From Candidatus Cloacimonadota bacterium (GTDB lineage: Bacteria; Cloacimonadota; Cloacimonadia; JGIOTU-2), in assembly GCA_030611765.1 (NCBI GenBank), contig JAUWPE010000005.1, positions 1 through 43,041 of the forward strand: a stretch of DNA of 43,041 nucleotides, written 5' to 3'. A program made the position numbers and the translations under genes. The stretch's first letter is position 1, and the number at the start of each line of letters is the position of its first letter. Below, one piece after another: positions 10,047 to 36,590 of this stretch. The notes under the pieces were generated by a model. It saw only the letters and a program-made list of their open reading frames with translations. It was not told where the DNA came from and did not search any database.

Positions 10047-10833
10047 CAGGACTTTCATTTTGAGCATAATTATAAAGTATATTCGGCTTTCCCGTGAATG
10101 GATTTCTTGTAACTTCTATCGGAACGTGAAAGACTTTTTTTAATTCTTCTTTTTTCAGAACATCCTCAGTATTGCCATAAGCAACAATGTGCCCATTATC
10201 CAGAATGAGTATCTTATTACAAAATTCTGCAGCGAGATTGATATTATGAGAAACTGCGAGAATGGTTTTGTTCTGTTCCTTATTTTGTTTTTGCAAGAGT
10301 GAGAAAATTCCTATCTGATGATGAATATCAAGATGGGATGCCGGCTCATCAAAAAGAAGAATATCCGTGTTCTGATTAAGCGCCATGGCGATCATGATAA
10401 GTTGAAACTCTCCACCGCTCAGTTCACTGATATAGCGACCGGAAAGATGATGGATATTGAGTTCATTTAGGATGTTTTCGGTTTGGACAATTTGCTTATT
10501 TGTGTAATTTTGCCAAAAACCGAGATAGGGATATTTTCCCATCAGCACGACATCCCGAACGGTAAAATCGAACTCAAAGTGTGGTTGCTGTACCACAACC
10601 GAAACCTTACGTGCACGTTCAATATCCGAGTAATCAGAAAGCGGAATATTATGAAGGTAAATATCTCCCCGATAGTCACTTATGTAACCACACAGGCACT
10701 TAATGAGAGTTGACTTGCCGGAGCCATTCGGTCCAATCAAACCAACAAAATCATTATTGTTCACAGTGAATGAAATATTATTTAGAACAGGTTTCTCGGA
10801 GTATGAATATTTTAAATTTGAAGTTTTTATCAT
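10039..10833 (-). CDS. btuD: ABC transporter ATPase, probable vitamin B12 import
   Basis: 264 residues; FepC/BtuD-type ATPase that drives the BtuC permease from the cytoplasmic side. Walker A GPNGSGKST at 34-42, Q-loop VVQQPHF near 80-86, signature LSGGE at 138-142, Walker B ILLFDEP at 158-164, D-loop SHLD and switch histidine in AVSHNIN. Its stop overlaps btuB. It starts 62 bases from the divergent rrf2 gene, so its promoter must lie in that short gap, separate from the riboswitch that controls btuF-btuC 2.3 kb away. No good ribosome site precedes the ATG. Iron-chelate ATPases look alike; the B12 assignment comes from the locus. Confidence 0.85.
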   Translation of the reverse strand: MIKTSNLKYSYSEKPVLNNISFTVNNNDFVGLIGPNGSGKSTLIKCLCGYISDYRGDIYLHNIPLSDYSDIERARKVSVVVQQPHFEFDFTVRDVVLMGKYPYLGFWQNYTNKQIVQTENILNELNIHHLSGRYISELSGGEFQLIMIAMALNQNTDILLFDEPASHLDIHHQIGIFSLLQKQNKEQNKTILAVSHNINLAAEFCNKILILDNGHIVAYGNTEDVLKKEELKKVFHVPIEVTRNPFTGKPNILYNYAQNESPDE

Positions 10834-10847
10834 TTTTATTGACGTTC

Positions 10848-10866
10848 ACATACTGGATTTGTATGT
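10848..10866. promoter_or_regulatory. Candidate operator between btuD and rrf2
   Basis: Inverted repeat ACATAC-N7-GTATGT in the 62-base divergent gap. Length and position suit autoregulation by the Rrf2 protein, and the site would also overlap the btuD promoter. No experimentally defined Rrf2 site is matched, so this is inference. Confidence 0.4.
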
Positions 10867-10895
10867 TTTAGTAAAATATGATCATGGAGGTCATA

Positions 10896-11309
10896 ATGAA
10901 AATATCGATTGATACCGACTACTGTTTGCGAGCTCTTCAGGAACTTGCATACCAGGATAGGGAGGCACCTTATTCTATTGTAAAGATAGCAACCAAGAGG
11001 AAAATTCCTAACAAATATCTCGAGAAGCTTTTCAGAAGAATGAGAATAGGCGGGATCGTTAAGTCCGTAAAGGGACGTACAGGTGGCTATATGCTTACCC
11101 GCGATCCTGATAAGATAACTACTAAAGATATCATCAAAGCAGTTGACGGCAGAACTAATATTCATAGCTGTACTGACCGCAAAACCGAAAAGCTCTGCGA
11201 GTTTATTGACGAATGCTCTTTCCAGGATTTCTGGACTGATTTTAATACTCATATTAATAACTTTCTTGAATCCTACACACTTGCTGACTTTCTTGAAAAA
11301 GAAAAATAA
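10896..11309 (+). CDS. Rrf2-family (IscR-like) transcription regulator
   Basis: 137 residues from the ATG at 10896, which follows GGAGG (10886-10890) at ideal spacing; the in-frame ATG at 10878 would put that site inside the gene. The N-terminal winged helix spans about 1-75 (SIVKIATKRKIPNKYLEKLFRRMRIGGIVKSVKGRTGGYML). Three cysteines at 92, 101 and 107 sit where IscR-type proteins hold a [2Fe-2S] cluster; the first gap (eight residues) is longer than IscR's five. It probably senses Fe-S status and controls the desulfurase and scaffold genes that follow after 11 bases. Divergent btuD shares its promoter region. Confidence 0.85.
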   Translation: MKISIDTDYCLRALQELAYQDREAPYSIVKIATKRKIPNKYLEKLFRRMRIGGIVKSVKGRTGGYMLTRDPDKITTKDIIKAVDGRTNIHSCTDRKTEKLCEFIDECSFQDFWTDFNTHINNFLESYTLADFLEKEK

Positions 11310-11320
11310 CTGAGTGTTCG

Positions 11321-12502
11321 ATGAGCGGTAAGGAAGTTTATCTCGACAGCTGTAAAACATCTCGCCTTGCGTCTGAAGTATTACACGCAATGATGCCCTA
11401 TTTGACAGATAAATATTGGTATCCAGGATCATTTACAAGCATTGGAACCGAGATCGCAGAAGTGATCGAACAGGCGCAGGAAACAGTTGCACATTCAATG
11501 AATGCAAAATCGGAAGAGATAACTTTTACTTCCGGCGGAACCGATGCGAATAATATTGCCATTCAGGGCATACTGCAGGCGAATAAAGAAAAGGGAAAGC
11601 ATTTCATTTGCTCAACCGTGTCACATCCATCCGTTCTGGCTATTTTTCAGGGAATGGAAAAGCGAGGATTTGAGGGAACCTATATCTCTGCAAATAAAGA
11701 TGGATATCTCAATCTTGATGAATTAGAAGCTGCGGTCAGACCGGATACCATTCTTGCTGCATTCACGCAGGTAAATCATATTCTTGGCACAATTCAGAAC
11801 TCAAAAGCGATCAGAAATATACTTGATCAATCTGATCATAAGGTATATCTGTTCATGGACTCCTGCGAAGCATATACAAAAATCCCACTCGATGTCGAAG
11901 AACTTGGTATTGACTCACTTTCAATCTCTGTGCATAAATTCAACGGACCAAAAGGGATGGGCATTCTCTATGTCAAAAAAGGAACAGAGATCGTACCTAC
12001 ACAGTTTGGAATTACAAGATTGTATAAACTGAAACCCGGGGCAATCAATGTGCCGGGAATAGTTGGGACTGAGAAAGCTGTCGAGCTGGCATTTACAGAT
12101 TTTGATAAGAAGATAGGGCGATACAGAGAACTTCAGAAATTGCTCTATGACGAGATAATGAAGAGAATTCCTGATGCAGTTCTCAACGGACCACCACTTG
12201 GAGAACGAAGTCCAGCTCATCTGAATGTAACATTCCGCTATATCGAAGGTGAGGCAATAATGATGATGCTTGATTTTGATAATATTCATGTTGAAACCGG
12301 CTCTGCATGCTCATCTCAGAATCTTCAGCCAAATTACATTCTGATGAATACAGGGCGAACTCATGAGGAATCTCATGGCTCTGTACGTTTTACTCTGGAT
12401 AGATTTGTCACAAAAGAGGATATTCTCAAAACTGTTGATGCACTGGAAAAAACAGCAAAAGAACTTCGCCGAAGAAGTCCTCTTGGTAAGAAGGAGCAAT
12501 AA
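11321..12502 (+). CDS. Cysteine desulfurase, NifS/IscS class, divergent
   Basis: 393 residues; fold-type I PLP enzyme that takes sulfur from cysteine and passes a persulfide to a scaffold. Seen: PLP lysine K206 in SVHKFNGPKG, PLP-stacking H102, D180 in FMDSCEAY, and the sulfur-carrying cysteine C330 in GSACSS. The N-terminal phrase DSCKTSR replaces the usual D-N-(A/S)-A-T-T. Two active-site phrases deviate: VNHILGT instead of VNNEIGT, and E183 where IscS has Q183, the residue contacting the PLP ring oxygen. The next gene overlaps its stop by one base, which suggests translational coupling. Regulator upstream and scaffold downstream support a role in Fe-S assembly; altered kinetics are possible. 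Confidence 0.85.
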   Translation: MSGKEVYLDSCKTSRLASEVLHAMMPYLTDKYWYPGSFTSIGTEIAEVIEQAQETVAHSMNAKSEEITFTSGGTDANNIAIQGILQANKEKGKHFICSTVSHPSVLAIFQGMEKRGFEGTYISANKDGYLNLDELEAAVRPDTILAAFTQVNHILGTIQNSKAIRNILDQSDHKVYLFMDSCEAYTKIPLDVEELGIDSLSISVHKFNGPKGMGILYVKKGTEIVPTQFGITRLYKLKPGAINVPGIVGTEKAVELAFTDFDKKIGRYRELQKLLYDEIMKRIPDAVLNGPPLGERSPAHLNVTFRYIEGEAIMMMLDFDNIHVETGSACSSQNLQPNYILMNTGRTHEESHGSVRFTLDRFVTKEDILKTVDALEKTAKELRRRSPLGKKEQ

Positions 12503-13137
12503 TGGCAATAAAATATTCGGAACTAGTGATAAAGCATTTCAAAAATCCACACAATGTAGGAATTATTGATAACCCGGATGCCTCTGCTACAGAGGGAAGT
12601 CCGGCATGCGGAGATCAGCTAACAGTGTATCTCAAGATAAATTCGGAAACGCAGATCATAGAGGATATCAAATTTCAATCCTATGGATGTGCATCCAATA
12701 TCGCCACCGCTTCGATAATTACTGATCTTGCAATGGGTAGAAATATAGAAGCAGCAAAACAGATAACCTGGAAACAGGCAGCTGACGAACTTGGCGGTCT
12801 GCCACCCATAAAAATGCACTGCTCTGTCCTTGCAGTCGATGCGCTTCGTTCAGCGATCAAAAATTGGGAACATAAATATCTCGGTAAAAAAATTGATGAT
12901 AGTCTCAGTAAAAAAAACATTGTAAAAGAACTTCAGAAAGTGATATACGGCAAGGTTGGTGTCGATATCGTGAGCTTGAAACTGCTCAAATATATCGGCA
13001 TTGATGATAAGAAGAATGTTCTGCTTGAAATTGCCATCAAAAAAGACGATCCATTTCTTGATGATGTGAAGCATGAGGTCAATGAACGTATGGAGAAATT
13101 TCCGAAGATAGCTTCAGTTAAGATTTCGCTGGTTTAG
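12502..13137 (+). CDS. IscU/NifU-type Fe-S scaffold fused to a C-terminal Fe-S-assembly-like domain
   Basis: 211 residues with AAGGAG upstream. Residues 1-125 are an IscU domain with the three ligand cysteines C36 (ACGD, with D38), C63 (YGCAS) and C107 (HCSVLA). Residues ~138-211 form a second domain (ELQKVIYGKVGVDIVSLKLLKYIGI ... ERMEKFPKIASVKISLV) resembling MIP18/DUF59-like Fe-S assembly domains. It lacks the CxxC expected in a true NifU C-terminal domain, so this is not classical NifU. It builds [2Fe-2S] or [4Fe-4S] clusters with sulfur from the preceding desulfurase. Its 3' end faces btuC, which is transcribed toward it. Confidence 0.85.
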   Translation: MAIKYSELVIKHFKNPHNVGIIDNPDASATEGSPACGDQLTVYLKINSETQIIEDIKFQSYGCASNIATASIITDLAMGRNIEAAKQITWKQAADELGGLPPIKMHCSVLAVDALRSAIKNWEHKYLGKKIDDSLSKKNIVKELQKVIYGKVGVDIVSLKLLKYIGIDDKKNVLLEIAIKKDDPFLDDVKHEVNERMEKFPKIASVKISLV

Positions 13138-24043: not shown

Positions 24044-25375
24044 TTAGAAACAAACCTTTGCTTTGAGATAGACTTCATCATTACCCTTCAAACTACTGAA
24101 TATATTGTTTCCTTTCCCATCGAGAATGTAAACTCCCAAAATCATTTCAATATTATCATACGGGAAAAAAGATAATTCTGGATTAAGAACTAAACCATAA
24201 TTATTTCTATAATCATCCCAATCGGTTACAGAAACTGCTCCGCCGATCGGAACTATTTTCAGTTCGTCATTAAAGAATTTCTTTTCAATGCGAAAAGTAA
24301 GATAATCATTCAGAGCGTCATTTCCTCTTTCATTAATAAAACCGTGAAGAAATTGAGTATTCAGATATATTCCATTTTTGAAAGTATAATCTCCACCAAT
24401 AACGAATTTGCAATACGGATCATTTTTCAAGGCAATTGATTTTGTTATGGAATCCCCAACTATAGTTTGCATTTCGACTTCATCGGGAATCGTGAGAGCA
24501 GCTTCTCCCCAAATTCCTACATTGAGAAGGCTTCCGGCAAAATCGGCACCGATAATCTGCATTTTTGGATAGATCATCTCTGCTGCCACATCTACAGTTT
24601 CCAATTTGTCGACGGGAATAATAGTTAATTTGTTAAGCAAAGGCAAATCGTCTCTACCATAATAATAACTTGCCGATAAATCATAATCGAATAAATAGGT
24701 GCCGACTTTAAAGCCTGCCTGTGACGATTCCGTCAATTTCTGTTCAGGTAAGATAATTCTATCCGAATAATTCCGAAGCGTCATTCCAGCAGGAAGTTCC
24801 ATCGGTTGTGATAGAGCGGAAGCATAAATGCCCGAAGGTAAAACTGCCGGAGTGAAGATAGGCACATATACTCCTGAAAAAGTGAAATCTTTCCAGTAAT
24901 AAGTTGTCAAAACAGAATTTACACCCGATTGTTCACCAAAATTGAAAACATCTTCCAGATCTTCAGGACAGATATTGCTGGTCGGATTCAATTTGTCGGC
25001 AGTTCCCCATGTAATTATCTGTCGTCCGATCCTGACATCCAAATCTTGTAAGACAAACTGGTATAGATCGAGATATGCTTCCCGAAATTCCAATTCCCAT
25101 TTATAGACTTTATCTTTGTTCTGCAAATCCACTGTTCTAGATATTTCAGAAAAGCCTAATCCTCTTAAACGAACTTCACTGAAAAAATGATACTTGTTAG
25201 AATACGAACCTTGAAATTTGAGCCCTAATTGATTTTCATTCCATGTAAAAGAATTATCATCTGTTAGCATACGGTTATCTGTTTTCAGATAACCATTGAT
25301 ACTGAAATTTTCTTGAGCATAAGAACTGCTGAATATCGCAACTAATATGCTGATGAATACGATTATTTTTTTCAT
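24044..25375 (-). CDS. Outer-membrane beta-barrel protein (DUF1302-like)
   Basis: 443 residues with a signal peptide (1-20, cleavage after YA-Q). Alternating beta-strand pattern throughout and a terminal phenylalanine in YLKAKVCF, as expected for an outer-membrane barrel. The phrase REAYLDLYQFVLQDLDVRIGRQIITWGTADKLNPTS near 95-130 matches the (G/R)RQ..WG.AD signature of DUF1302-type proteins, which commonly travel with RND exporters and LolA-like proteins. It lies downstream of just such genes (RND, patatin, LolA-like). Role as the outer-membrane component of lipid transport is inference. Confidence 0.75.
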   Translation of the reverse strand: MKKIIVFISILVAIFSSSYAQENFSINGYLKTDNRMLTDDNSFTWNENQLGLKFQGSYSNKYHFFSEVRLRGLGFSEISRTVDLQNKDKVYKWELEFREAYLDLYQFVLQDLDVRIGRQIITWGTADKLNPTSNICPEDLEDVFNFGEQSGVNSVLTTYYWKDFTFSGVYVPIFTPAVLPSGIYASALSQPMELPAGMTLRNYSDRIILPEQKLTESSQAGFKVGTYLFDYDLSASYYYGRDDLPLLNKLTIIPVDKLETVDVAAEMIYPKMQIIGADFAGSLLNVGIWGEAALTIPDEVEMQTIVGDSITKSIALKNDPYCKFVIGGDYTFKNGIYLNTQFLHGFINERGNDALNDYLTFRIEKKFFNDELKIVPIGGAVSVTDWDDYRNNYGLVLNPELSFFPYDNIEMILGVYILDGKGNNIFSSLKGNDEVYLKAKVCF

Positions 25376-25677: not shown

Positions 25678-26424
25678 CTATTTCACTCTTTTCAGATTTC
25701 TTTTAGTGAATATATCATCTGAAAGACCTTTATCCAATTCAATTTTTTCAATGATCATTTTGGTGCTGTGCTGTTTTTTCAGGTCTGTCATTTCCGCTTC
25801 TGAAGCAATCCAATATTTACCATTCTTTTTAATGTTTCGGCTTTCAAATAATTTCCAAAGAAAGGAGTTATTATCATAAAATTCCAATTTTACAGGATAA
25901 AAATTATCTTGCCTTACCCACATTTTCAGTTTGCTGTAACTCTTTTCCACACCCTGTTTGGGAATAAGTTCCAGAATATACAGACTATCAGTTTTTTCCA
26001 GGAGAGTGGCATTATATTCTTCTGCATATTTGCTAGCACTCATATCATCATAACTGAAATCCGTGCCGGCAAAATTATCATTTTTGATATGAGAAGCAAT
26101 TCTTCTTACTTTATGAAATGCCGGAAGATATAGATATTGAACATCGTCGGGAAGTGATAAGAAGCTAACACCTTTCTGGTCTGCCGGTGAAAGAAAGCGA
26201 ACTAAACGCATTTCATCACCTTTCTGATACATCTTCATCTCTCGAATTTTCTCATTTCCGCCTTTGTCCGTTAAGGTCATTTTAAGGGATATTTCCTGAT
26301 CTTGCGGTGCATTCACGACTGCATCTGCATTTTTCAGAATGTCTTCTGCTGTGGGTGTTTGAGCATAAATACTTCCACATACCAAAATCAGAAGCATTGT
26401 AATGGTTATTGCCATTTTTTTCAT
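25678..26424 (-). CDS. LolA-like outer-membrane lipoprotein-sorting protein (PF17131 type)
   Basis: 248 residues, AAGGAG before the ATG, signal peptide 1-21 (cleaved after YA-Q). Periplasmic LolA-like half-barrel: AEDILKNADAVVNAPQD at the start, then KMTLTDKGGNEKIREMKMYQKGDEMRLVRFLSP, PADQKGVSFLSLPDDVQYLYLPAFHKVRRI and FAGTDFSYDDM near 115-125, and a late YPVKLEFYD strand. These phrases are characteristic of the family that accompanies RND/MMPL exporters rather than of true LolA. It presumably shields a hydrophobic ligand between the membranes, with the RND pump upstream and the barrel downstream as partners. Confidence 0.87.
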   Translation of the reverse strand: MKKMAITITMLLILVCGSIYAQTPTAEDILKNADAVVNAPQDQEISLKMTLTDKGGNEKIREMKMYQKGDEMRLVRFLSPADQKGVSFLSLPDDVQYLYLPAFHKVRRIASHIKNDNFAGTDFSYDDMSASKYAEEYNATLLEKTDSLYILELIPKQGVEKSYSKLKMWVRQDNFYPVKLEFYDNNSFLWKLFESRNIKKNGKYWIASEAEMTDLKKQHSTKMIIEKIELDKGLSDDIFTKRNLKRVK

Positions 26425-26490
26425 TTTTGTCTCCTTTGTTTTTTTTATCTTTTTTAAGGGTTTTGCATAATTGGTGAATTTTTATCAACC

Positions 26491-26549
26491 AACCTCATCC
26501 CCTAGCCCCTTCTCCTAAAAAGAGAAGGGGAATTCATTGAGGTGAGGTA
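26491..26549. repeat. Nested palindrome between patatin and LolA-like genes
   Basis: Inner arms CCCCTTCTC / GAGAAGGGG with loop CTAAAAA, outer arms ACCTCA / TGAGGT. The 'CCCCTAGCCCCTTCTCC' phrase is a dispersed repeat seen in many unrelated bacterial genomes. It may double as a transcript-end hairpin for the patatin gene. Confidence 0.6.
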
Positions 26550-26576
26550 AAAAACGCTCCATTTTGCAGAACTCAT

Positions 26577-27518
26577 TTATTTTTCTTTTAAAATTTTTTC
26601 GGCAGCTTCATATCCTTTTTCTATTATTTCTTCTGCTTTATAAAATTCGAACATATTTACGCTACCAACATCCGGTTCGATCAAAACATCAGGTTTGTAT
26701 AATTCGATAGATTGTGTTATCATTTTTTCTTGAGCTATCTTAATCGATTGATTGAATATTTTTTTCATGCTGGGTAGATCTTCTTTCTCTTTGTGTTTGA
26801 TGAAATTCCTTATCCATTTCTTATCGACAATTAAGTCTTCGAGTTTTCTTTGCAGAGTAGGAATAATTTCGAGAGGTTTCTCTAAATTTATTTTATTGTC
26901 ACTCTTTTTATCGCGTTTAATGTCCGACATGTTTTTTGACGACAAAACATTAACTGCAATAATATGATTTGCACCTATTTCACGTGCTACATTAATTGGA
27001 ACAGGACTAACGAGACCGCCGTCAACGAGAATAATATTATTCCAGATTACCGGTTGAAATACAATAGGGATTGAAATACTGGCACGAATTGCTTCTACGA
27101 GATCGCCTTTACTAAAATGGATTTCCTGACCTGTGAGCAGATCGGTTGCTACTGCTGCAAATGGGATTTCCAGTTCTTCAATATTTTTTTTACCTAATAT
27201 TGAGGTTAAAAATTTCTGAACTTTTAAACCTGTAACCAAACCTGATTTTCCAAATCCGGGTGAAAAAAGCTTTGCAGTTGAAGTTAGATCGGTTTTAAGA
27301 GCAATATCCTCAATTTCTTTGATACTTAATCCGCCGGCATAAGCACCTCCGATCAAAGCTCCAATACTCGAACCGGCAATAAAATCAATTTTTACATTCA
27401 TTTCTTCTAAATATTTTATAACGCCGATATGAGATAGCCCTTTTGCGCCACCGCAGCCAAGAACCAAACCCACTTTTTTCTTTTTAAAGTGCTTCATTAA
27501 TTTATCTTTCCATTCCAT
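26577..27518 (-). CDS. Patatin-like phospholipase (RssA/YchK type)
   Basis: 313 residues, GAGGT before the ATG. Serine-aspartate dyad hydrolase: oxyanion-hole GCGGAKGLSHIG at 21-32, nucleophile elbow GSSIG with S51, and DGG with D166. Patatin domain ends near 205; the remaining ~105 residues are helical and charged. No signal peptide, so it acts in the cytoplasm or at the inner membrane on acyl lipids. It lies 10 bases after the RND gene, suggesting its lipolysis is tied to exporter substrates or to membrane lipid recycling feeding FakA/FakB. Confidence 0.88.
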   Translation of the reverse strand: MEWKDKLMKHFKKKKVGLVLGCGGAKGLSHIGVIKYLEEMNVKIDFIAGSSIGALIGGAYAGGLSIKEIEDIALKTDLTSTAKLFSPGFGKSGLVTGLKVQKFLTSILGKKNIEELEIPFAAVATDLLTGQEIHFSKGDLVEAIRASISIPIVFQPVIWNNIILVDGGLVSPVPINVAREIGANHIIAVNVLSSKNMSDIKRDKKSDNKINLEKPLEIIPTLQRKLEDLIVDKKWIRNFIKHKEKEDLPSMKKIFNQSIKIAQEKMITQSIELYKPDVLIEPDVGSVNMFEFYKAEEIIEKGYEAAEKILKEK

Positions 27519-27528
27519 AATTATTACC

Positions 27529-30474
27529 TCATTTTTTATCTTTAAAATTATTCACTTTCTGTTTTATGTTTGCTTTGATATTTATTGCCCGTCTCAACGC
27601 CAAATGTTTCAAGTCTCCAATGAAGGAAGCGTGTGTGATCAAAAGAAGTGAAGGCAAAAATGTTAAGGATGCTGTAGCACTGACTACCATTGTAAGTGCA
27701 ATTAACCAGCCGAATCTTTGCATTGGAACAATACTGCCCAATAATAATGTCAGGAAACCGAGCATTACGGAAAAAGCATTAATTATGATACCTTTACCAG
27801 TTGTTTGGAGTGTGGTTTCAAGAGCGTTTTCTACGCTATTTTTTTTACCGATCTCAAAATGAAAACGATTATTGAAATGGATCGTATAATCGATCCCAAT
27901 TCCAACGGCAACACTCCCGATCATCACGGTAGCCGCATCTAACGGTATTTTGAAAATCCACATAATCGCAAAATTGAAAAGAACAGTAAGAATAATCGGC
28001 AAAATGGAAATCAAGCCCCCAATGAACGATTTGAATTGAATTGCCAGCAAAATAAACACAAGTCCAATCGCAAAAAGAAGACTGTATGTCTGGCTGGAAA
28101 CGATGTTGTTGTCGATGTCTTTATAAATTATCGGCATACCGGTTTGCTGTAAATCGAGAGAGATCGTTGGGTTCTGCTCATCTTTATTTAAGTTATTAAA
28201 TTTTGTATTAGAAAGGAAAATCTGTGTGTCATTAATTTCCCAGACATCACCGATCAGATTCTTTTTAAAATCAGGATTTTGCTGAATATCTTTTGAAAAT
28301 AACGGGGTTATTTCTTTTATCAGGTTATTAACTTTATTCCATTCAATTTCATTCTTGATGATTGTTGAAATGGAAATTGCAGCATAATCCAGCATTTCAG
28401 GATCATCTTCATAATACGAGTAAGGAACAACTTTCTTTAAGTTTGAAACAATCCCCTTTTCAGAATAATCCTCATTTTTCTCAACATATTTCAGGAGAGA
28501 TTTTACCACTTTATTCTGTAAAGATGAAGATTCTATCAGCAGATCACTATCCTCATCATTCATATAATCTACCAATTTAATGGTTAGATTGGAAGTTGGA
28601 ATTTCCTGATCATCTTGAGTTAAATATTTATGCAGAATTTTTTCTAAAGCATCTCGATCTTTTATTTCAAAACCATAATGAGCAGCATCATAAAAAATCT
28701 TATTAGAAATATTTTCCGCTCTTTCCTGATTTATCTCTTCTGTAATGGAATTTGTTTCTGTTAAGTCTATTGTTAAAATATCAGAATTTATATTTTTGGA
28801 GATGAAATCATCAATGCTGTCAATAATATATCTGCCTTTTTTTGTATCAACCGTGCCCAGTTTTGCCTGAATTAATCCTTCATTATTTTGCGAATTGATC
28901 AATTGCGGGAGAATTTCATTTCCCTCTAAAAAGAACCAGAGATTTGCTACTCCTTCGCGGGTTTCCGGAATACAATAACTGTCATTCATCACATCGTTCA
29001 TTTCACAGATCAGATCTGCAATAGATTGTGGACTATGCACATCCGGTAAGTTTTTCAAGTATTTTTCCAATTTTATCATTTCCTTTAATACTGCCGGTTC
29101 CTGCAAATCACCTTTTACTAAGATCTGGATAGGAATGGAACCACCGAGTTTAGATTCCATCATATCTTCCGCCTGACGAATTTCACTGTCCTTCTTAAAA
29201 TAATCCACCATATTTACTTCTCTGTTAATTTTAAAGAGCGAGAAGATTCCAATAGCAACAATAAAAAAACCGATAATCAGAATAGCAATCCTTCTTTTTA
29301 GAATTAATCTGCTTAATCCGGTCATAAAACGATTCATTAAGGTCGGCTCAAGAGATTCTTTCTTTGCTTTGATTTTGGGAGCAGGCATAAATGATAATAG
29401 AGCAGGCAGAAAAGTGATGGCAACAATAAAGGCAAACAAAACCCCGATTGCCGTGAAAACCCCGAACTCTTTGATAATCGTTAAATTGGAAACTAAAAAT
29501 GCCAAAAAACCGATAGATGTTGTTAATCCAGCCAGAAAAATTGGCACACCGACTTCGCTGATAGTATCTTTGATAGCTTCGATTTTATTATCACCTTTGC
29601 GAATATCTTCCATATATTTATTTACGAGATGAATTCCGTAAGCACTGCCGATAGCGAGCAGTAATATGGGTATTCCATCAGAAGCAACTGTTAGTTTGAT
29701 CCCAAATAAAGACATTAATCCCAATCCCCAGGTTGTACTGATGATCACAGTTACAAGTGGCAATATCACTCCTCGCTTGCTGCGGAAACTTATTGCCAAA
29801 GTTATGATCAGCAAAAGAAGAACTATAGGAAGTAATTTGGCAACATCGGAATTAATAACATCTGTCAGATAAATCATCTGGAAGGGGATACCGGCAAAAT
29901 ATAATTTTTCATTTCCTTCTGTGGACAGAACGAATTCTTTCATTTCTCGTCCAACAACAAGCCGGTCTGCATCTTCATTTAATCGGGCAATAACTACTGC
30001 TATAGTTCCATCATCCGAAACGATATTTCCACGATACATTTCTTTGGATAAAGTGTAATTTTTGATCTTTTCCAATTCATCTTTTTCAGAGGGGATATGA
30101 CGTTCATCGAACAGTTTTCCGACTTCCAGTCCATCTTCCATCTTCTTAATATCGATAACATCCGTCAGACTGGTTACATAAGATATTTCCGACATTTCTT
30201 TGAATTTTTGTGTTATTGTGTTTATCCGCTTTAAGGTGTTTGGATTGAATACATCCTCAGTTTCCATCGCAATCATTGCCAGAGAATTACCCCCGAATTT
30301 TTCTCCAACTTCATTGAATAAAACTACATTTGGATCGTCCTGCGGTAAATATTTCAGTATGTCGCTGCTGATTTCCAGTTTTCTTAATTGGAATGCCATA
30401 AATACCGTTATAATGATAGTTCCAATTATAATCGTAACACGATATTTCAGTACCAGTTCTGCGAATTTTCTCAT
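27529..30474 (-). CDS. RND-superfamily exporter with MMPL/SSD-type domains
   Basis: 981 residues, AGGGGA before the ATG. Two repeats, each with one helix, a large periplasmic domain and a five-helix bundle: helix 10-28, periplasmic ~30-205, helices ~210-385 (GSAYGIHLVNKYMED); helix ~393-415, periplasmic ~420-785, helices ~790-960 (GSVAVGIGIDYTIHFNNRFHFE). The second periplasmic part is ~350 residues, about twice the first, and rich in charged residues. Such proteins (HpnN and MmpL types) move lipids or hydrophobic compounds out of the inner membrane using the proton gradient. Partners likely include the LolA-like protein and barrel downstream. Confidence 0.88.
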   Translation of the reverse strand: MRKFAELVLKYRVTIIIGTIIITVFMAFQLRKLEISSDILKYLPQDDPNVVLFNEVGEKFGGNSLAMIAMETEDVFNPNTLKRINTITQKFKEMSEISYVTSLTDVIDIKKMEDGLEVGKLFDERHIPSEKDELEKIKNYTLSKEMYRGNIVSDDGTIAVVIARLNEDADRLVVGREMKEFVLSTEGNEKLYFAGIPFQMIYLTDVINSDVAKLLPIVLLLLIITLAISFRSKRGVILPLVTVIISTTWGLGLMSLFGIKLTVASDGIPILLLAIGSAYGIHLVNKYMEDIRKGDNKIEAIKDTISEVGVPIFLAGLTTSIGFLAFLVSNLTIIKEFGVFTAIGVLFAFIVAITFLPALLSFMPAPKIKAKKESLEPTLMNRFMTGLSRLILKRRIAILIIGFFIVAIGIFSLFKINREVNMVDYFKKDSEIRQAEDMMESKLGGSIPIQILVKGDLQEPAVLKEMIKLEKYLKNLPDVHSPQSIADLICEMNDVMNDSYCIPETREGVANLWFFLEGNEILPQLINSQNNEGLIQAKLGTVDTKKGRYIIDSIDDFISKNINSDILTIDLTETNSITEEINQERAENISNKIFYDAAHYGFEIKDRDALEKILHKYLTQDDQEIPTSNLTIKLVDYMNDEDSDLLIESSSLQNKVVKSLLKYVEKNEDYSEKGIVSNLKKVVPYSYYEDDPEMLDYAAISISTIIKNEIEWNKVNNLIKEITPLFSKDIQQNPDFKKNLIGDVWEINDTQIFLSNTKFNNLNKDEQNPTISLDLQQTGMPIIYKDIDNNIVSSQTYSLLFAIGLVFILLAIQFKSFIGGLISILPIILTVLFNFAIMWIFKIPLDAATVMIGSVAVGIGIDYTIHFNNRFHFEIGKKNSVENALETTLQTTGKGIIINAFSVMLGFLTLLLGSIVPMQRFGWLIALTMVVSATASLTFLPSLLLITHASFIGDLKHLALRRAINIKANIKQKVNNFKDKK

Positions 30475-30551
30475 ATTTTATTTTCCCCTACATATCTTTT
30501 TTTATATTTTTTTGTTTTCGTGAATTTCCTTTTGATTAATATCTTCATCAA

Positions 30552-30980
30552 TTACTGCAATTGATAAAGTTTTGTAATATCAATATCTTCTAAATCATCT
30601 CCCTTGTTGACATGAATCGTTCGTGGGATTGTAAGTCCCGTGAGTGAGTCAAGGTCGCCATAATAACCAACTTTGTCAGTATCCAGATCGAAAATAAAGT
30701 TAGGATTTGCATCATCGATAGCTGCTACATAATGATCTCCTGCACTTACTGCAACCATTGTATAATTTCCATTAGAATTTGTTATCATTCCATTGGAAAG
30801 TGAAAGACCCGTGCTTACGGAATCCCCAGCAGCAAGTAGTATGACATACGCACCTGAAACTGGATCTCCATCATTGCTTACGTTCCCTGAAATAGTTGTA
30901 GTTATCGCTTTCACGATATCTCCACAGCCAGATATTGTGATAACTATCAAAACTGCTAATACATAAAATCTTTTTTTCAT
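30552..30980 (-). CDS. Lipoprotein with a carboxypeptidase-regulatory-like beta domain
   Basis: 142 residues. Signal sequence with lipobox ITISGC, so lipidated at C19. The rest is one beta-sandwich domain of the carboxypeptidase-regulatory type (TISGNVSNDGDPVSGAYVILL, SNGNYTMVAVSAGDHYVAAID). It ends with a short segment DDLEDIDITKLYQL. Such domains bind or brace other envelope proteins. It lies between the START-like gene and the RND gene on the same strand, so it may be an accessory of that export path. No catalytic residues are apparent. Confidence 0.75.
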   Translation of the reverse strand: MKKRFYVLAVLIVITISGCGDIVKAITTTISGNVSNDGDPVSGAYVILLAAGDSVSTGLSLSNGMITNSNGNYTMVAVSAGDHYVAAIDDANPNFIFDLDTDKVGYYGDLDSLTGLTIPRTIHVNKGDDLEDIDITKLYQLQ

Positions 30981-31000
30981 TTTAATTCTCCTTTTTTTGT

Positions 31001-31621
31001 TTATGGTAGCTCTGCTCTATCTTTTATTGCTTTCATATTAATCCTGAGGGGAGACAGATACAATGGAAATTCCATCTCCGGTTTTTTATTGATCAAAAAT
31101 TTTGCAACACCTGTAAAGTTGTCTCTATCAACTTCCTTTGTCCGAAAAAGCACAACACGCTTCCCTTGATTAATCGGAATTAATTTATAACGACCTGTCT
31201 CCCTATTTATTTCGGTATCTATGATAATAAGTTCGGGTTTTTTTAAAATATATTTGGTAGTATATCTAACAGTAGAACCAATAACCATAAATTTAAATTC
31301 TACAGCAGATTCAACTGTAATCTCATTATTGTCTTTCTTTATAATTTTACAATCTTTATGTCCTGGTATAAATTCAGGATAGTTTTCAAAATCGGTTAAC
31401 ACCTTCCATACTTTATCCAACGGTGCATCAATTAGGATAGCCAATGTTATGTATTTAATTTCTCCATTTATTTCTTCAAGATGAATTAATTCACCTTTGT
31501 TTAGTAATATTTTTAAAGTTGATTCATCCAATTCTTGCTCTAATATATTTGCAAAAGTACTATTTGCAACCAAAATAATCAAACTCATAGTTAATATAAT
31601 TGCTGATGTTTTTTTAATCAT
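31001..31621 (-). CDS. Exported START/SRPBCC-domain protein
   Basis: 206 residues with a signal peptide (1-24, ANSTFA-N). Residues ~45-200 are a polyketide-cyclase/START-like helix-grip domain: ITLAILIDAPLDKVWKVLTDFENYPEFIPGHKDCKII at its start, ESAVEFKFMVIGSTVRYTTKYI in the middle, and a long C-terminal helix region. This fold binds lipids or other hydrophobic ligands in a deep cavity; secretion to the periplasm is less usual. Its ATG overlaps the stop of the GtrA gene. It could carry lipid between the membranes in concert with the RND and LolA-like proteins, which is inference. Confidence 0.82.
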   Translation of the reverse strand: MIKKTSAIILTMSLIILVANSTFANILEQELDESTLKILLNKGELIHLEEINGEIKYITLAILIDAPLDKVWKVLTDFENYPEFIPGHKDCKIIKKDNNEITVESAVEFKFMVIGSTVRYTTKYILKKPELIIIDTEINRETGRYKLIPINQGKRVVLFRTKEVDRDNFTGVAKFLINKKPEMEFPLYLSPLRINMKAIKDRAELP

Positions 31622-32031
31622 TATTTATTATCCTCTTTTTTAAATATATACTTCTCATTTGCAAAAAAGCTAAAAATTCCGGAAAAACATAATGCTATAA
31701 CATTACAGATAACGATATGAAAATGAAAAAGTTCATTGATCACAGATAGCAATCCTATTTTTATGACAAGAGAAATTAATAATGCAAAATTATAACCTAG
31801 AAAAAGTCTGAAAAAACTTGATCTATCATTATGAACTCTATGATTCCATATCCAGAAATAGCAGATAATATAGGTTACAGCAATTCCTAATTCATAGGAG
31901 ATTGCCGGAGATAATACATATTTTGTGAAATAGGAATGAAAAAAAAGTGTTGTAAGTATCCATAACACAGATGTGTCGACAATTGCTCCGACAACTCCTC
32001 TTATTGCAAACTTTATGAAATTTCGCAGCAT
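31621..32031 (-). CDS. GtrA-family membrane protein
   Basis: 136 residues with four membrane helices. GtrA signature at the start (FIKFAIRGVVGAIVDTSVLWILTTLF) and the third-helix phrase NVIALCFSGIFSFFANEKYIFK at the end. Members are thought to help flip polyprenyl-phosphate-linked sugars (as in O-antigen glucosylation) or otherwise assist lipid-linked glycan steps. No glycosyltransferase gene is adjacent. Its last base overlaps the START-like gene start. Confidence 0.85.
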   Translation of the reverse strand: MLRNFIKFAIRGVVGAIVDTSVLWILTTLFFHSYFTKYVLSPAISYELGIAVTYIICYFWIWNHRVHNDRSSFFRLFLGYNFALLISLVIKIGLLSVINELFHFHIVICNVIALCFSGIFSFFANEKYIFKKEDNK

Positions 32032-32082
32032 ATTAATTCACTAATTCGGGCATTAGTTTTTCTTTATTGAACATTATGATAT

Positions 32083-33546
32083 TCATTTTTTATCCTTTTT
32101 TTTACAAGGTTCCAAATAGTTCTTCTCCCATATTGGATCAAGAAATTCGGCAAGTTCATCATCGTATTGGATCATTTTGTCGTAATAATCTTGATCATGC
32201 AAACAAATTGCTGCTGAAGGATAACCCGGTTTGGATTCAGTCTTCACGAATAAATCATGCGCTTCTTTGTGATGATCTCGAATAAAGCAAGGTCTTATCT
32301 CGTTTCCCCGAACATCCGGTTGACACATATAGTTATATGATAATTGCCAGTCTCTAACTCCTTTAAATAGGTCAGAAAATAAAGCATCTGTTAATGTTTT
32401 TCCTTGAGAGAAAAGATTATGAATATTATCTTTCCAGAAAGGAACAAAAACGCAAGGATAGATATTCCCATTCCAATCGATATAGAGATAACCTTCGGGG
32501 CGAGCACCGGCAATGCAACCGGAAGAAAAAGTGCCACCATTCCAGAAATCAGCGAAAAATTTTCGTTCTTTTCTAACAATATCTTGTTCCCGAGCCCACA
32601 TTTTTGTTCGTAGTTCCGGTGAAACCTGATGTTCAACTTCCACACCTCTTCCAATCGGCATATATTGGAAAAGCCATTCATAAAGAGCTCCCTGCTCATC
32701 GAAGTAGAATTTGACCATTTCTTTGGAGATAAGAAGTTCTGCATTCTCGGGTGTGGCAGTAACGGCAATGCCGAAAGGAACACCTGCATTGCGCAGATTT
32801 TCAAAGGCAGCAAGAATTCTTTTGTATGTTCCTTTTCCACGTCGTTCATCAGTTTCTTTCTCAAATCCCTCAACCGAGATAGCCATTGTCATATTACCAA
32901 CTTCAGCTAATCGTTTAGCGGTTTTCTCATCAATGAGTGTGCCATTTGTATAAACGAGAAAATATTGCTCCGGGTGACGCCTTGCAATTTCAATAATGTC
33001 AACATCGCCATCATGCCAGATGAATGGCTCACCACCGGAAATAACAGTGAACCAGCTTCCCCACTTTTCATATTTTTCCTTTAAGACTCTTTCAACATCT
33101 TCCGCTGATAAAGAAGGCAATACCTTAGGGACACTTGCAGCGTAGCAATCCTTACATCGCAGGTTGCAATTTCCCCCAGGCGAGATCGTCAGGAAACTGG
33201 GAGGTCTTACGCCGTATTCCTCCTCATATTTTTTTATCTTTTCATTTCTTCCGTTGCTTTTTGTCAGAAATTCTTTTAGAAATAAATTGATTATCCGATC
33301 CCGTACAGCGGGTGAGCTGTTGTCATACGCTTTAAGTGCAGCCCGTACAATATTTGATGTTATATAAAACTTGTCTTCCCGTTGGCGTCGTGGACCGATT
33401 TTGACAGGATCACCTTTATTGATCCACAATTTGAATGCAACCTTTTCAAGCGGTGGAAGAGCTACTTTCCATGCTTTTGTGATCGAACTTAGATTTGCGA
33501 CTTGCTTTGTGATAAATTCGCTGAATTTCATTGTACTCGTTTTCAT
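32083..33546 (-). CDS. Radical SAM enzyme with SPASM-like C-terminal cysteines
   Basis: 487 residues, AAAGGAG before the ATG. An ~115-residue N-terminal helical extension precedes the radical SAM barrel: cluster motif C127-x3-C131-x2-C134 in GGNCNLRCKDC, SAM-binding GGEP at 171-174 and AISVEGF near 223. Four more cysteines (C344, C365 in WNGNIYPCVFVPF, C408, C420) can hold an auxiliary cluster as in SPASM-type enzymes. No peptide substrate gene is nearby, so a peptide-modifying role is not supported. The neighbours are fatty-acid and lipid genes, so lipid modification is possible but unproven. Substrate unknown. Confidence 0.85.
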   Translation of the reverse strand: MKTSTMKFSEFITKQVANLSSITKAWKVALPPLEKVAFKLWINKGDPVKIGPRRQREDKFYITSNIVRAALKAYDNSSPAVRDRIINLFLKEFLTKSNGRNEKIKKYEEEYGVRPPSFLTISPGGNCNLRCKDCYAASVPKVLPSLSAEDVERVLKEKYEKWGSWFTVISGGEPFIWHDGDVDIIEIARRHPEQYFLVYTNGTLIDEKTAKRLAEVGNMTMAISVEGFEKETDERRGKGTYKRILAAFENLRNAGVPFGIAVTATPENAELLISKEMVKFYFDEQGALYEWLFQYMPIGRGVEVEHQVSPELRTKMWAREQDIVRKERKFFADFWNGGTFSSGCIAGARPEGYLYIDWNGNIYPCVFVPFWKDNIHNLFSQGKTLTDALFSDLFKGVRDWQLSYNYMCQPDVRGNEIRPCFIRDHHKEAHDLFVKTESKPGYPSAAICLHDQDYYDKMIQYDDELAEFLDPIWEKNYLEPCKKKDKK

Positions 33547-33589
33547 GATTAACTCCTTTCATGAATTTTTATTATTCTTACTTTGTAAA

Positions 33590-34711
33590 TCATATATGTT
33601 TGATAAAACATCTTCTTCTTTTATGCTGTCTTCGATCAAAAAATTTCCATTGAGCTTGAACTTTGGTGTTGTTTTCCAATTCGATATTTGTTTCTGCTTT
33701 TTCGATTTTATTATCGATAGATATTTGAATTAATTCCTTAAATATAAGCGTATTTACTCCCTTTCCCTGCAAATCGGGACGAACTGCAACCAGGTATAGA
33801 TCGACAAGATTATTATGTTTTAATGCCTTCAGGATATGAATTAAACCAAAAGGTAAGAGTCTTCCATTTGCTTTTTGAAATGCTTTAGAAAGCGAAGGCA
33901 TCGTTATTCCGAAAGCACCAACTTTGCCGGATTCATCGAGGATAATAGATATGTATTTATGCGGAATGGTTCCGATATATTGTTTAATATAGTTTTCAAT
34001 TTGTTTTTCCGTTAGAGGGACAACCCCGTAAAGAGGTTCAAAGGCATCGTTAAGAACTTTGAAAATTTCTTTGGCATAAGGTTTCAGGTCTTTTGAGCTT
34101 TTAGTTTTTAAAACTGTTAATTTGTATTTTTTCTTGACGATGTTGGCGATTCTCTCAATTTTTTCAGGAATTTTCTTCGGCACTTTTACTTCAAATTCAA
34201 TCCAATCAACATCCTTTGAGTATCCGTATTTTTCAAGATGTTTGGAGTAATATGGATAATTATAGATCGTAGCAATTGTTCCAAGTTCTTCAAATCCTTC
34301 TATAAGCATTCCTTCCTGATCGAGGTCTGTGAATCCGAGAGGTCCGTGAACTGCTTCCATTCCGTTTTCTTTTGCCCATTTTTCCACTGTTTCGAGCAGT
34401 GCTTTTGCTACATTTTCATCATCGATAAAATCTATCCAGCCGAAACGAGCATATTTATTTTCCCACTTTTCGATGTAGCGATGATTGATAATACCGACAA
34501 TTCTCCCAACAACTTTTTCGTTTTCATAAGCAAGCCATAGCTTAACATCGCAAAAATCATAAGCAGGGTTTTTCTTTTTATTGAGGATATCAAACTCATC
34601 TTTTTTCAAAGGTGGAATCCAGTATTTATTTCCCTTGTAAAGTTTATAAGGAAACGAGATGAATTGTTTAAGTTCTTTTTTGGCTTTTAATTCTTTAATA
34701 ATAATGTTCAT
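33590..34711 (-). CDS. YghO-type GNAT-fold acyltransferase
   Basis: 373 residues from the ATG at 34711 with AGGTGG at good spacing; this start lies two bases after the fabH stop (a GTG at 34720 would overlap fabH). Typical YghO-like sequence: FISFPYKLYKGNKYWIPPL near 20-38, AYENEKVVGRIVGIINH, GPLGFTDLDQEGMLIEGFEE, a second GNAT part with LYLVAVRPDLQGKGVNTLIF, and the terminal FFDRRQHKRRRCFIK motif. GNAT-fold N-acyltransferases of broadly this type include the bacterial ceramide synthase of Caulobacter; whether this protein is close to it needs a tree. Directly following fabH, it may use a fatty acyl donor. Confidence 0.8.
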   Translation of the reverse strand: MNIIIKELKAKKELKQFISFPYKLYKGNKYWIPPLKKDEFDILNKKKNPAYDFCDVKLWLAYENEKVVGRIVGIINHRYIEKWENKYARFGWIDFIDDENVAKALLETVEKWAKENGMEAVHGPLGFTDLDQEGMLIEGFEELGTIATIYNYPYYSKHLEKYGYSKDVDWIEFEVKVPKKIPEKIERIANIVKKKYKLTVLKTKSSKDLKPYAKEIFKVLNDAFEPLYGVVPLTEKQIENYIKQYIGTIPHKYISIILDESGKVGAFGITMPSLSKAFQKANGRLLPFGLIHILKALKHNNLVDLYLVAVRPDLQGKGVNTLIFKELIQISIDNKIEKAETNIELENNTKVQAQWKFFDRRQHKRRRCFIKHI

Positions 34712-34713
34712 TT

Positions 34714-35709
34714 CTACCACCTAATAACTATTGCACCCCAAGTTAAACCGGCACCAAAAGCAGTTAAAACTACAATATCTCCTTTTTTAATTTTTCCTTG
34801 AGTTATAGCTTCGTCTAAAGCAATGGGAATTGAAGCTGCAGAAGTATTTCCATATTTTTCAAGATTTATCATTATTTTTTCTAATGGTAGATGCAATTTT
34901 TTTGCAACAGCTTTTAAAATTCGAATATTTGCCTGATGGGGTATGAGAAGATCGATATCCTTTCTTGTTAAATCAACTTTATCTAAAGCCTTAATTACAG
35001 AATCAACCATCATCTTATTGGCAAATTTATAAACTTTTTTTCCTTCCATTTTTATAAAGTGTTGTCTTTGTTCGATTGTAATATTTGTAGTAGGTAATCG
35101 TGAACCTCCAGCCGGAATTTTAAGTAAATCAGCACCGGTGCCATCTGAACCAAAATCGAATGAAATTATGTTCTTTCCTTTCAGACCTTTCTTTATAATA
35201 ATTGCTCCTGCTCCATCACCAAATAAAACACAAGTATTTCTATCTTTCCAATCTACCGTCCGTGAAAAGATTTCAGTTCCGATTATCATCGCAGTATCAT
35301 AATTACTGTTTTTCATAAGAGATTCTGCAACAAACAGCGAATAAATCGAACCGGAACAAGCAGCGGATAAATCAAAACAAACAGCGTTTTCCAAACCAAG
35401 TTTATGTTGTGTAATGCAAGCAGTTGAAGGAAAGTAGTGATCAGGAAAATGAGTAGCTAAAATTAATAAATCAATATCTTTGGGATTAATATTTGCATTT
35501 TCTAAAGCTTTTGCTCCTGCTTTAGCTGCTAAATCTGATGCTGCTTCTTTATCGTCAGCTATTCGTCTTTCTTCAATACCTGTTCTTGTCCTGATCCACT
35601 CGTCGGTTGTATCTACTATCTTTTCCAGATCAAAGTTAGTCAGGATTTTTTTAGGAACATAAAAGCCGGTTCCGACTATTCCTATATTGTTAGAATTTTT
35701 TTTATTCAT
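34714..35709 (-). CDS. fabH: 3-oxoacyl-ACP synthase III
   Basis: 331 residues, the usual length. Thiolase-fold condensing enzyme that starts fatty-acid chains by joining acyl-CoA with malonyl-ACP. Catalytic triad all present: C118 in DLSAACSG, H258 in IPHQAN, N288 in YGNTSAAS; TTDEWIRTRTGIEERRI near 34-49 is the classic N-terminal motif. It heads the run of lipid genes after TetR, separated from TetR by 65 bases that hold a two-box motif also found upstream of tetR. A specialised starter-unit role rather than general fatty-acid synthesis is possible because no other fab genes are beside it. Confidence 0.9.
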   Translation of the reverse strand: MNKKNSNNIGIVGTGFYVPKKILTNFDLEKIVDTTDEWIRTRTGIEERRIADDKEAASDLAAKAGAKALENANINPKDIDLLILATHFPDHYFPSTACITQHKLGLENAVCFDLSAACSGSIYSLFVAESLMKNSNYDTAMIIGTEIFSRTVDWKDRNTCVLFGDGAGAIIIKKGLKGKNIISFDFGSDGTGADLLKIPAGGSRLPTTNITIEQRQHFIKMEGKKVYKFANKMMVDSVIKALDKVDLTRKDIDLLIPHQANIRILKAVAKKLHLPLEKIMINLEKYGNTSAASIPIALDEAITQGKIKKGDIVVLTAFGAGLTWGAIVIRW

Positions 35710-35725
35710 TTTTCTCTCACCTCAA

Positions 35726-35754
35726 TATTCGACTACAATGGTTTTATATTCGAG
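35726..35754 (-). promoter_or_regulatory. Candidate TetR operator upstream of fabH
   Basis: Minus strand CTCGAATA-N13-GTCGAATA, boxes 21 bases apart (two helical turns), ending 16 bases before the fabH ATG. The same two boxes with the same spacing occur upstream of the TetR gene. This makes it a likely site for that regulator, overlapping the fabH promoter region. Confidence 0.6.
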
Positions 35755-35774
35755 TTTTTTAATAAAAACATATT

Positions 35775-36353
35775 TCATCTTTTTACGATTCCATTGAAAA
35801 GTATTTCCAGGAGTTTATCGGTATTTGATTCAATTTCAGGAAAAGAAATATTTATCGACCAAGGATATTCCAAGCCCTTTAAAGCAGAGGCAATTGCAAA
35901 AGCTGTTAATTCTATATCGCTAATATCAAATATCCCGTTATCTTCTCCTTCCTGCAAAATTTCCCGAATAGTGAACAGTTCTTCTCTACTGTTTTTTTTC
36001 CGTATATTTTCTATGAAAGCGTAATGTTCCAGATACTCGTCTTTAAGTGCACTATTGATATTAACAAGCTCTTTGAGATATTCCATTTTCTTCAAAATGT
36101 AGATCTTCATTTTCTTTTGTGGAGTATCTTCATTGATTATCGCTTCCCTTATTTTTTCTTTAAGGTATTTATTTTCTTTCTCAACAACTTCTTTAAATAT
36201 ATCTTCTTTGCTTTGGAAATAATGATATAAAGAAGCTTTTCCCATTCGGGCTGCTTTGGCGATTTCATCAACGGTTGTTTTTATTAGACCATATTTTGAA
36301 AATATATTTTGAGCAACCTGTGTGATGATTTTCTTTTTTTCATTTCCTTTCAA
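35775..36353 (-). CDS. TetR-family transcription regulator
   Basis: 192 residues from a TTG preceded by AGGCGG at close spacing; no ATG in frame nearby. N-terminal helix-turn-helix TTVDEIAKAARMGKASLYHYFQSKEDIFKEVV at about 25-56, the standard TetR DNA-binding region; the C-terminal ~135 residues are a helical ligand domain resembling fatty-acid-responsive regulators of this family. It is transcribed in the same direction as fabH. Paired boxes upstream of both genes suggest it controls itself and the lipid/envelope genes downstream, probably with an acyl ligand; the ligand is inferred. Confidence 0.87.
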   Translation of the reverse strand: MKGNEKKKIITQVAQNIFSKYGLIKTTVDEIAKAARMGKASLYHYFQSKEDIFKEVVEKENKYLKEKIREAIINEDTPQKKMKIYILKKMEYLKELVNINSALKDEYLEHYAFIENIRKKNSREELFTIREILQEGEDNGIFDISDIELTAFAIASALKGLEYPWSINISFPEIESNTDKLLEILFNGIVKR

Positions 36354-36368
36354 GCAAACCGCCTATTT

Positions 36369-36397
36369 CTCGAATAATTTAGTTTTATGGTCGAATA
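36369..36397 (+). promoter_or_regulatory. Candidate TetR operator upstream of the tetR gene
   Basis: Plus strand CTCGAATA (36369-36376), 13 bases, GTCGAATA (36390-36397): the same boxes and spacing as before fabH, here 16 bases upstream of the TTG start. The rest of the 237-base gap to the next gene is AT-rich with nothing further evident. Confidence 0.6.
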
Positions 36398-36590
36398 ATT
36401 TTGTATGTGTAATTTGTGTCAATATTATTTTTTATTTTCTTGCATCCCTCCAAAAATTTTGATAAACATAGCAATTCCAGAGAGCGGAATACAGAGAAAG
36501 GCAAATGGAGTTGGAACGATTTTTTAATTTTCAATTTACTTGACTGCTTTAAAGATACAGAGTGATTAATACAAAAACTGGGAGTCATAT

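Follow-up and report, generated by a model that had tools for sequence, protein, structure and literature searches.

Two copies of a predicted 25-bp operator link a TetR-family regulator gene to an adjacent lipid operon in a Cloacimonadota bacterium

Why does the same pair of short boxes occur before two neighboring genes, tetR and fabH, of a Candidatus Cloacimonadota bacterium? The earlier note on this DNA, a window of 43,041 nucleotides (the whole stretch analysed here), described the two-box pattern CTCGAATA-N13-GTCGAATA, and we found it exactly as described at 35726-35754 (minus strand) and 36369-36397 (plus strand). Allowing up to two mismatches, the window contains two matches, compared to 0.13 expected from dinucleotide shuffles of the window. 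A search of the genome and its relatives, which that note had proposed as a check, returned, across 2.23 Mb of genome, the exact pattern at these two sites only, and found the site conserved beside tetR in the relatives; with two mismatches, the pattern occurs at six other places in the genome, which corresponds to the background level. The single box TCGAATA shows no enrichment in the window (10 occurrences against 9.1 expected), and the signal therefore resides in the pair of boxes and their spacing. A different near-palindrome, TCGAACAGATTGCAATAATACTCGAATA at G000:C134:28013-28043 (L007, L008), is a two-mismatch match of the same pattern. The best explanation, to which we give a probability of about 0.86, is that the sites are operators of the TetR protein encoded between them, which would repress both its own gene and the fabH operon and be released by a lipophilic ligand.

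Closer inspection of the two sites modifies their description. The distance of 16 bases to the start codon is correct for fabH (ATG, 35709), while that for tetR (TTG, 36353) is 15. Since both genes lie on the minus strand, the matches quoted on opposite strands face opposite ways relative to their genes, and their geometry looked consistent only because the TCGA core reads the same on both strands. The spacers, said to differ, do not simply do so: on the coding strand, both sites carry ATAAAAC in the same register and align as TCGA..ATAAAAC......TCGA. The 25-bp cores, named O1 and O2 in Table 1, share 18 of 25 positions in the same orientation and 16 of 25 in the opposite one, a small difference within the window alone; it is the relatives that settle the orientation. 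O1 and O2 are very probably two copies of one predicted operator for the adjacent TetR-family protein.

Table 1. Predicted operators, promoter-like site and genes of the locus, with positions in the window
Feature	Position	Strand	Remarks
Sigma-70-like promoter TTGACA-N16-AATTAT for tetR, abuts/overlaps O1	36395..36422	-	10/12 matches
Predicted operator O1, 25-bp core TCGACCATAAAACTAAATTATTCGA, upstream of tetR, overlaps tetR promoter	36370..36394	-	window-excluded matrix 34.8 (minus), 18.6 (plus)
tetR, TTG start, 192 aa, TetR_N Pfam domain	35775..36353	-	full-length sequence relation to FadR, QacR
Predicted operator O2, 25-bp core TCGAATATAAAACCATTGTAGTCGA, between tetR and fabH	35729..35753	-	window-excluded matrix 31.3 (minus), 13.6 (plus)
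fabH, beta-ketoacyl-ACP synthase III, first gene after O2	34714..35709	-	TIGR00747 427 bits, cut-off 292
Two-part GNAT acetyltransferase-like protein, 7-base overlap with fabH end	33590..34720	-	
Radical SAM protein, weak SPASM-domain match	32083..33546	-	
GtrA-like membrane protein	31621..32031	-	
Polyketide cyclase / lipid transport domain protein	31001..31621	-	
Carboxypeptidase-regulatory-like domain protein (CpD-like), weak match	30552..30980	-	
MMPL / RND-type lipid exporter	27529..30474	-	
Patatin-like phospholipase (RssA-like)	26577..27518	-	
LolA_like outer membrane lipoprotein-sorting protein	25678..26424	-	same run in relatives; putative member of the transcript
Weakly DUF1302-like protein, after LolA_like in relatives	24044..25375	-	

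Besides the window's own gene, a search of 99 related genomes revealed nine TetR genes at 70-93% identity, and a more distant group at 35-51%. Counting that of the window, there are ten close orthologues (70-100% identity), and each carries a site before tetR and a site directly behind its stop codon. The gene that follows the second site is FabH in the window and in L041 and L042, GNAT in L040 and L043-L046, radical SAM in L039 and MMPL in L047, with ACP in the more distant L049 and an NMO/FabK-like enzyme in L051-L058. Because the site is retained while the neighboring gene is swapped, it bears the mark of the regulator's operator. Searched at zero mismatches, TCGAMYNNWRRACNNNWNTRKTCGA gives 16 matches in the own genome and the 99 relatives, and comparison of the coordinates places all 16 beside a tetR of the same family.

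A scan of named genomes identified 80 homologous tetR loci with 40-89% identity. Their phylum labels, which are those of the record titles (MAG titles can be wrong), include Cloacimonadota, Aminicenantes, Calditrichota, Ignavibacteriae, Zixibacteria, WOR-3, Spirochaetes, Bacillota and Bacteroidota (with the cultured Algoriphagus), among others. Using a score above 14 to call a site (the background maximum being 13.9 in 633 pieces of 240 bp), the site is present before tetR in 65 loci, after tetR in 54, and in at least one of these places in 75 of the 80. The scores do not exceed 7.3 at five other, unrelated TetR loci of the class. Two proposals of the earlier note are supported: this is a regulator site, the adjacent TetR protein, with which the site travels in these 75 loci, very probably being the regulator, and it joins tetR to the fabH-led lipid operon.

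The TetR protein displays a helix-turn-helix of the TetR_N family (PF00440, 54.6 bits against a cut-off of 24), and its AlphaFold2 model (pLDDT 85.7, pTM 0.77) shows an all-helical TetR fold with a ligand-binding domain. Foldseek matches the model to FadR, QacR and KstR2 with a probability of 1.00. Full-length similarity relates the protein to FadR of Bacillus, a TetR-family fatty-acid regulator (PDB 3whb/3whc, 5gp9; 1.6e-19), and to QacR of Staphylococcus aureus (PDB 1jt0; 8.5e-18), with a TM-score of 0.78 to the DNA-bound form of the latter. The likeness to FadR comprises both the fold match and the link with fatty-acid genes, but the proteins are 24% identical over the structural alignment, and assignment to the Bacillus FadR equivalog (NCBIfam NF053878) was rejected at 45.9 bits against a cut-off of 200. 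Moreover, Bacillus FadR controls fatty-acid degradation, whereas the predicted targets here belong to lipid synthesis and export. QacR also differs in this respect, as it controls a drug pump.

The operon after O2 is one of lipid synthesis, modification and transport. The genes from fabH through patatin are separated by short gaps or overlap, while the LolA-like and weakly DUF1302-like genes follow at longer gaps (152 and 302 bp), yet accompany MMPL in relatives, and would extend the transcript. The genes downstream vary among relatives and mostly belong to lipid synthesis or envelope export (FabH, ACP, GNAT, radical SAM, MMPL, LolA-like). The kinship with FadR together with the lipid targets suggests an acyl-type ligand. 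Many relatives carry export pumps but no fatty-acid genes downstream, and the ligand therefore need not be a fatty acid; the Bacteroidales homologues precede efflux genes, which makes a wider class of lipophilic ligands possible. One might accordingly regard the protein as mainly a QacR-like efflux regulator that senses xenobiotic or toxic lipophilic compounds, with FabH and the other lipid genes as passengers of a membrane-repair operon. Both sequence and fold do place QacR with the nearest relatives, and the targets are OEP/HlyD/ABC-2 in Bacteroidales loci and HlyD/RND-type genes in Algoriphagus. However, FadR proteins score at least equally well, and the targets in Cloacimonadota and WOR-3 are FabH, ACP, acyltransferase, NMO/FabK-like and MMPL-LolA genes. 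We hold this alternative to be unlikely.

The MMPL, LolA_like and weakly DUF1302-like genes (window 25678-30474) recur together behind TetR in many phyla, in many of the loci L125-L195, and this recurrent set suggests that lipids may reach the outer membrane by an uncharacterised transport route. The TetR-ABC-MMPL-lipoprotein-sorting operons of Porphyromonas gingivalis (PG1175-81) and Prevotella intermedia, described as strongly induced by iron depletion (PMC10434189), likewise place a TetR gene in front of MMPL and LolA-like genes, an order shared by many of the present loci.

Concerning the mode of action at the two sites, the position of O1 within the promoter region of tetR and of O2 before the adjacent operon, both conserved in the orthologues, is the arrangement of an autoregulated local TetR repressor. 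The promoter scan as a whole yields no more sites than shuffles; several orthologues keep TTGAC(A/G) some 25 bp upstream of the site, and this conservation provides better support for the tetR promoter than the scan. The overlap of O1 with the promoter-like end would fit repression by blocking of RNA polymerase. In front of O2, the promoter scan found no clear promoter, and O2 could therefore be a roadblock on read-through from tetR. The sites would then bind TetR, tetR and fabH would be co-transcribed, and O2, lying between them, would act as a roadblock or attenuator rather than as the operator of a second promoter. This is compatible with the gap of only 65 bp between the two genes, which lie on the same strand, with the start of O2 about 14-21 bp past the tetR stop in most loci, and with the lack of a good promoter-like site before fabH. 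We nevertheless hold it to be improbable, at perhaps one chance in four: a roadblock rarely needs a precise copy of a promoter operator, and a gap kept free over about 65 bp leaves room for a non-standard type of promoter. Looping of the DNA between O1 and O2 was rejected, as their distances of 629-785 bp in 36 loci display no 10-11 bp phasing.

The geometry of the predicted operator emerges from the relatives. Its conserved form is TTCGAMC-N2-ARRAC-N5-TRKTCGAA in a matrix from 42 sites, where G3, A4, C13, T22 and C23 are near-invariant. Across 131 sites, the outer boxes TTCGAMC...GKTCGAA are inverted, with 415 of 780 inverted versus 246 of 780 direct matches outside the TCGA core. The middle box reads purine-A-C, with A12 in 96% and C13 in 87% of the 131 sites, and in 16 sites it takes the form T-N-GAC at positions 9-13, a copy of the outer half-site. 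A 25-bp core with left, middle and right boxes exceeds about 20 bp and holds more than two half-sites, as in pair-of-dimers binding of the QacR type. The orientation along the gene is the same in 108 of 119 sites of the named loci. Unlike most loci, the Bacteroidales/Bacteroidetes loci L155, L159, L161, L165, L168, L181 and L186 have a site after tetR that scores best on the opposite strand.

These data bear on the unit proposed in the earlier note, in which two CTCGAATA/GTCGAATA boxes would form a direct repeat and each would be bound as it stands. The repeat is exact in the window, where the sites match at 4/6 positions in direct versus 2-3/6 in inverted comparison outside TCGA, but the inverted outer boxes of the relatives, the orientation of the site along the gene and the far higher scores of the window sites on the coding strand contradict it. 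We thus reject this geometry, which also overlooked the conserved middle RAC box, as highly improbable. The AATA stretch within the boxes is specific to this genome.

As the first matrix had been seeded with the window sites, a second one was built from 131 sites excluding the window, with scores in bits. Using this matrix, the two window sites rank first with 34.8 and 31.3 on the coding strand, followed by a place scoring 5.3, and 60 simulated windows reach 17.6 at most. The circularity introduced by the first matrix is mostly answered by the control sequences, the unrelated TetR loci and the window-excluded scan. No further site inside the operon scores above 5.3. In the own genome, the pattern with three mismatches gives 44 matches versus 86 for the reversed control, and since there is no excess of weaker sites, the regulon probably consists of tetR and one operon. 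That the two sites are a chance or non-regulatory repeat has nothing in its favor beyond the commonness of a short single box, and genome-wide exclusivity and cross-phylum conservation beside tetR reduce it to a vanishing probability.

In the preferred reading of O1 and O2 as operators of the adjacent protein, TetR would act through O1 on its own promoter and through O2 on that of the fabH-led operon for lipid synthesis and export, repressing both, and would be released by a lipophilic ligand, most likely acyl-CoA, an acyl chain or a membrane-active compound. The operator would be a 25-bp oriented site in which the half-site TCGAMC is followed 8 bp on by a middle RAC box and then by GKTCGA, a half-site in inverted orientation. 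Of these boxes, the middle and the right one form an inverted pair of dimer size (RAC-N7-GTY) with 10 bp between matching positions, about one helical turn, which is the spacing needed by a single TetR dimer. The left half-site lies 8 bp further out and probably accommodates a second dimer, as with QacR, the best-known TetR protein of the pair-of-dimers kind. The QacR operator IR1, CTTATAGACCGATCGATCGGTCTATAAG as printed (PMC9210681), has the half-site TAGACC/GGTCTA, which resembles TCGACC/TAGACC of the present sites. However, the core tetranucleotides are spaced by 21 bp here compared to about 16 bp counted on the printed IR1, and IR1 is palindromic, whereas the present sites have an oriented centre; we would not call the window TetR demonstrably QacR-like in stoichiometry. 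Operators of 22-32 bp, and sites that are not palindromic, have been described for TetR proteins binding DNA as paired dimers (PMC4150764). The present 25-bp site is like those of such CprB-type regulators in being longer than the 15-17 bp of a single dimer, but the box sequences differ.

The genes behind the operator also appear to be mobile. In the closest relative, L039 (G006:C24; locus ~9500-12900), fabH is absent after the operator and its place is taken by an additional radical SAM gene and a GNAT gene that has diverged (31%), so the head of the operon has been exchanged as a module. The proteins of the TetR cassette (window 26577-36353; L040-L046) are mostly 72-89% identical between families that have 60-62% RpoB identity to the window genome; the identities are 80-89% for TetR, 85% for FabH, 79-86% for radical SAM and 88% for MMPL in G059. 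Given this high identity relative to RpoB, and given that the same-genus genome G005 (RpoB 94% identical) has no close TetR, the cassette appears to move between lineages by horizontal transfer.

More tentatively, and with somewhat less than even odds, the loci may represent an undescribed TetR subfamily of many phyla, with an oriented three-half-site operator TCGAMC-N2-ARRAC-N5-TRKTCGA, spread in part by horizontal transfer of the whole cassette and combined with swappable lipid-synthesis or envelope-export genes behind the same operator. No description of this operator was found in the open literature searched (TTCGACC with TetR; TetR with FabH/MMPL/fatty acid; Cloacimonadota with TetR), a scope that leaves out most subscription papers. 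Taken together, the analysis casts an unannotated TetR gene of an uncultured lineage as a regulator whose binding site is predicted and whose target is a single defined operon, and for which close homologues in the cultured Algoriphagus offer a testable counterpart. The site is a marker for finding the targets of this regulator in many phyla, among them operons in which genes for fatty-acid initiation (FabH, ACP) stand together with those for MMPL/LolA-like lipid transport.
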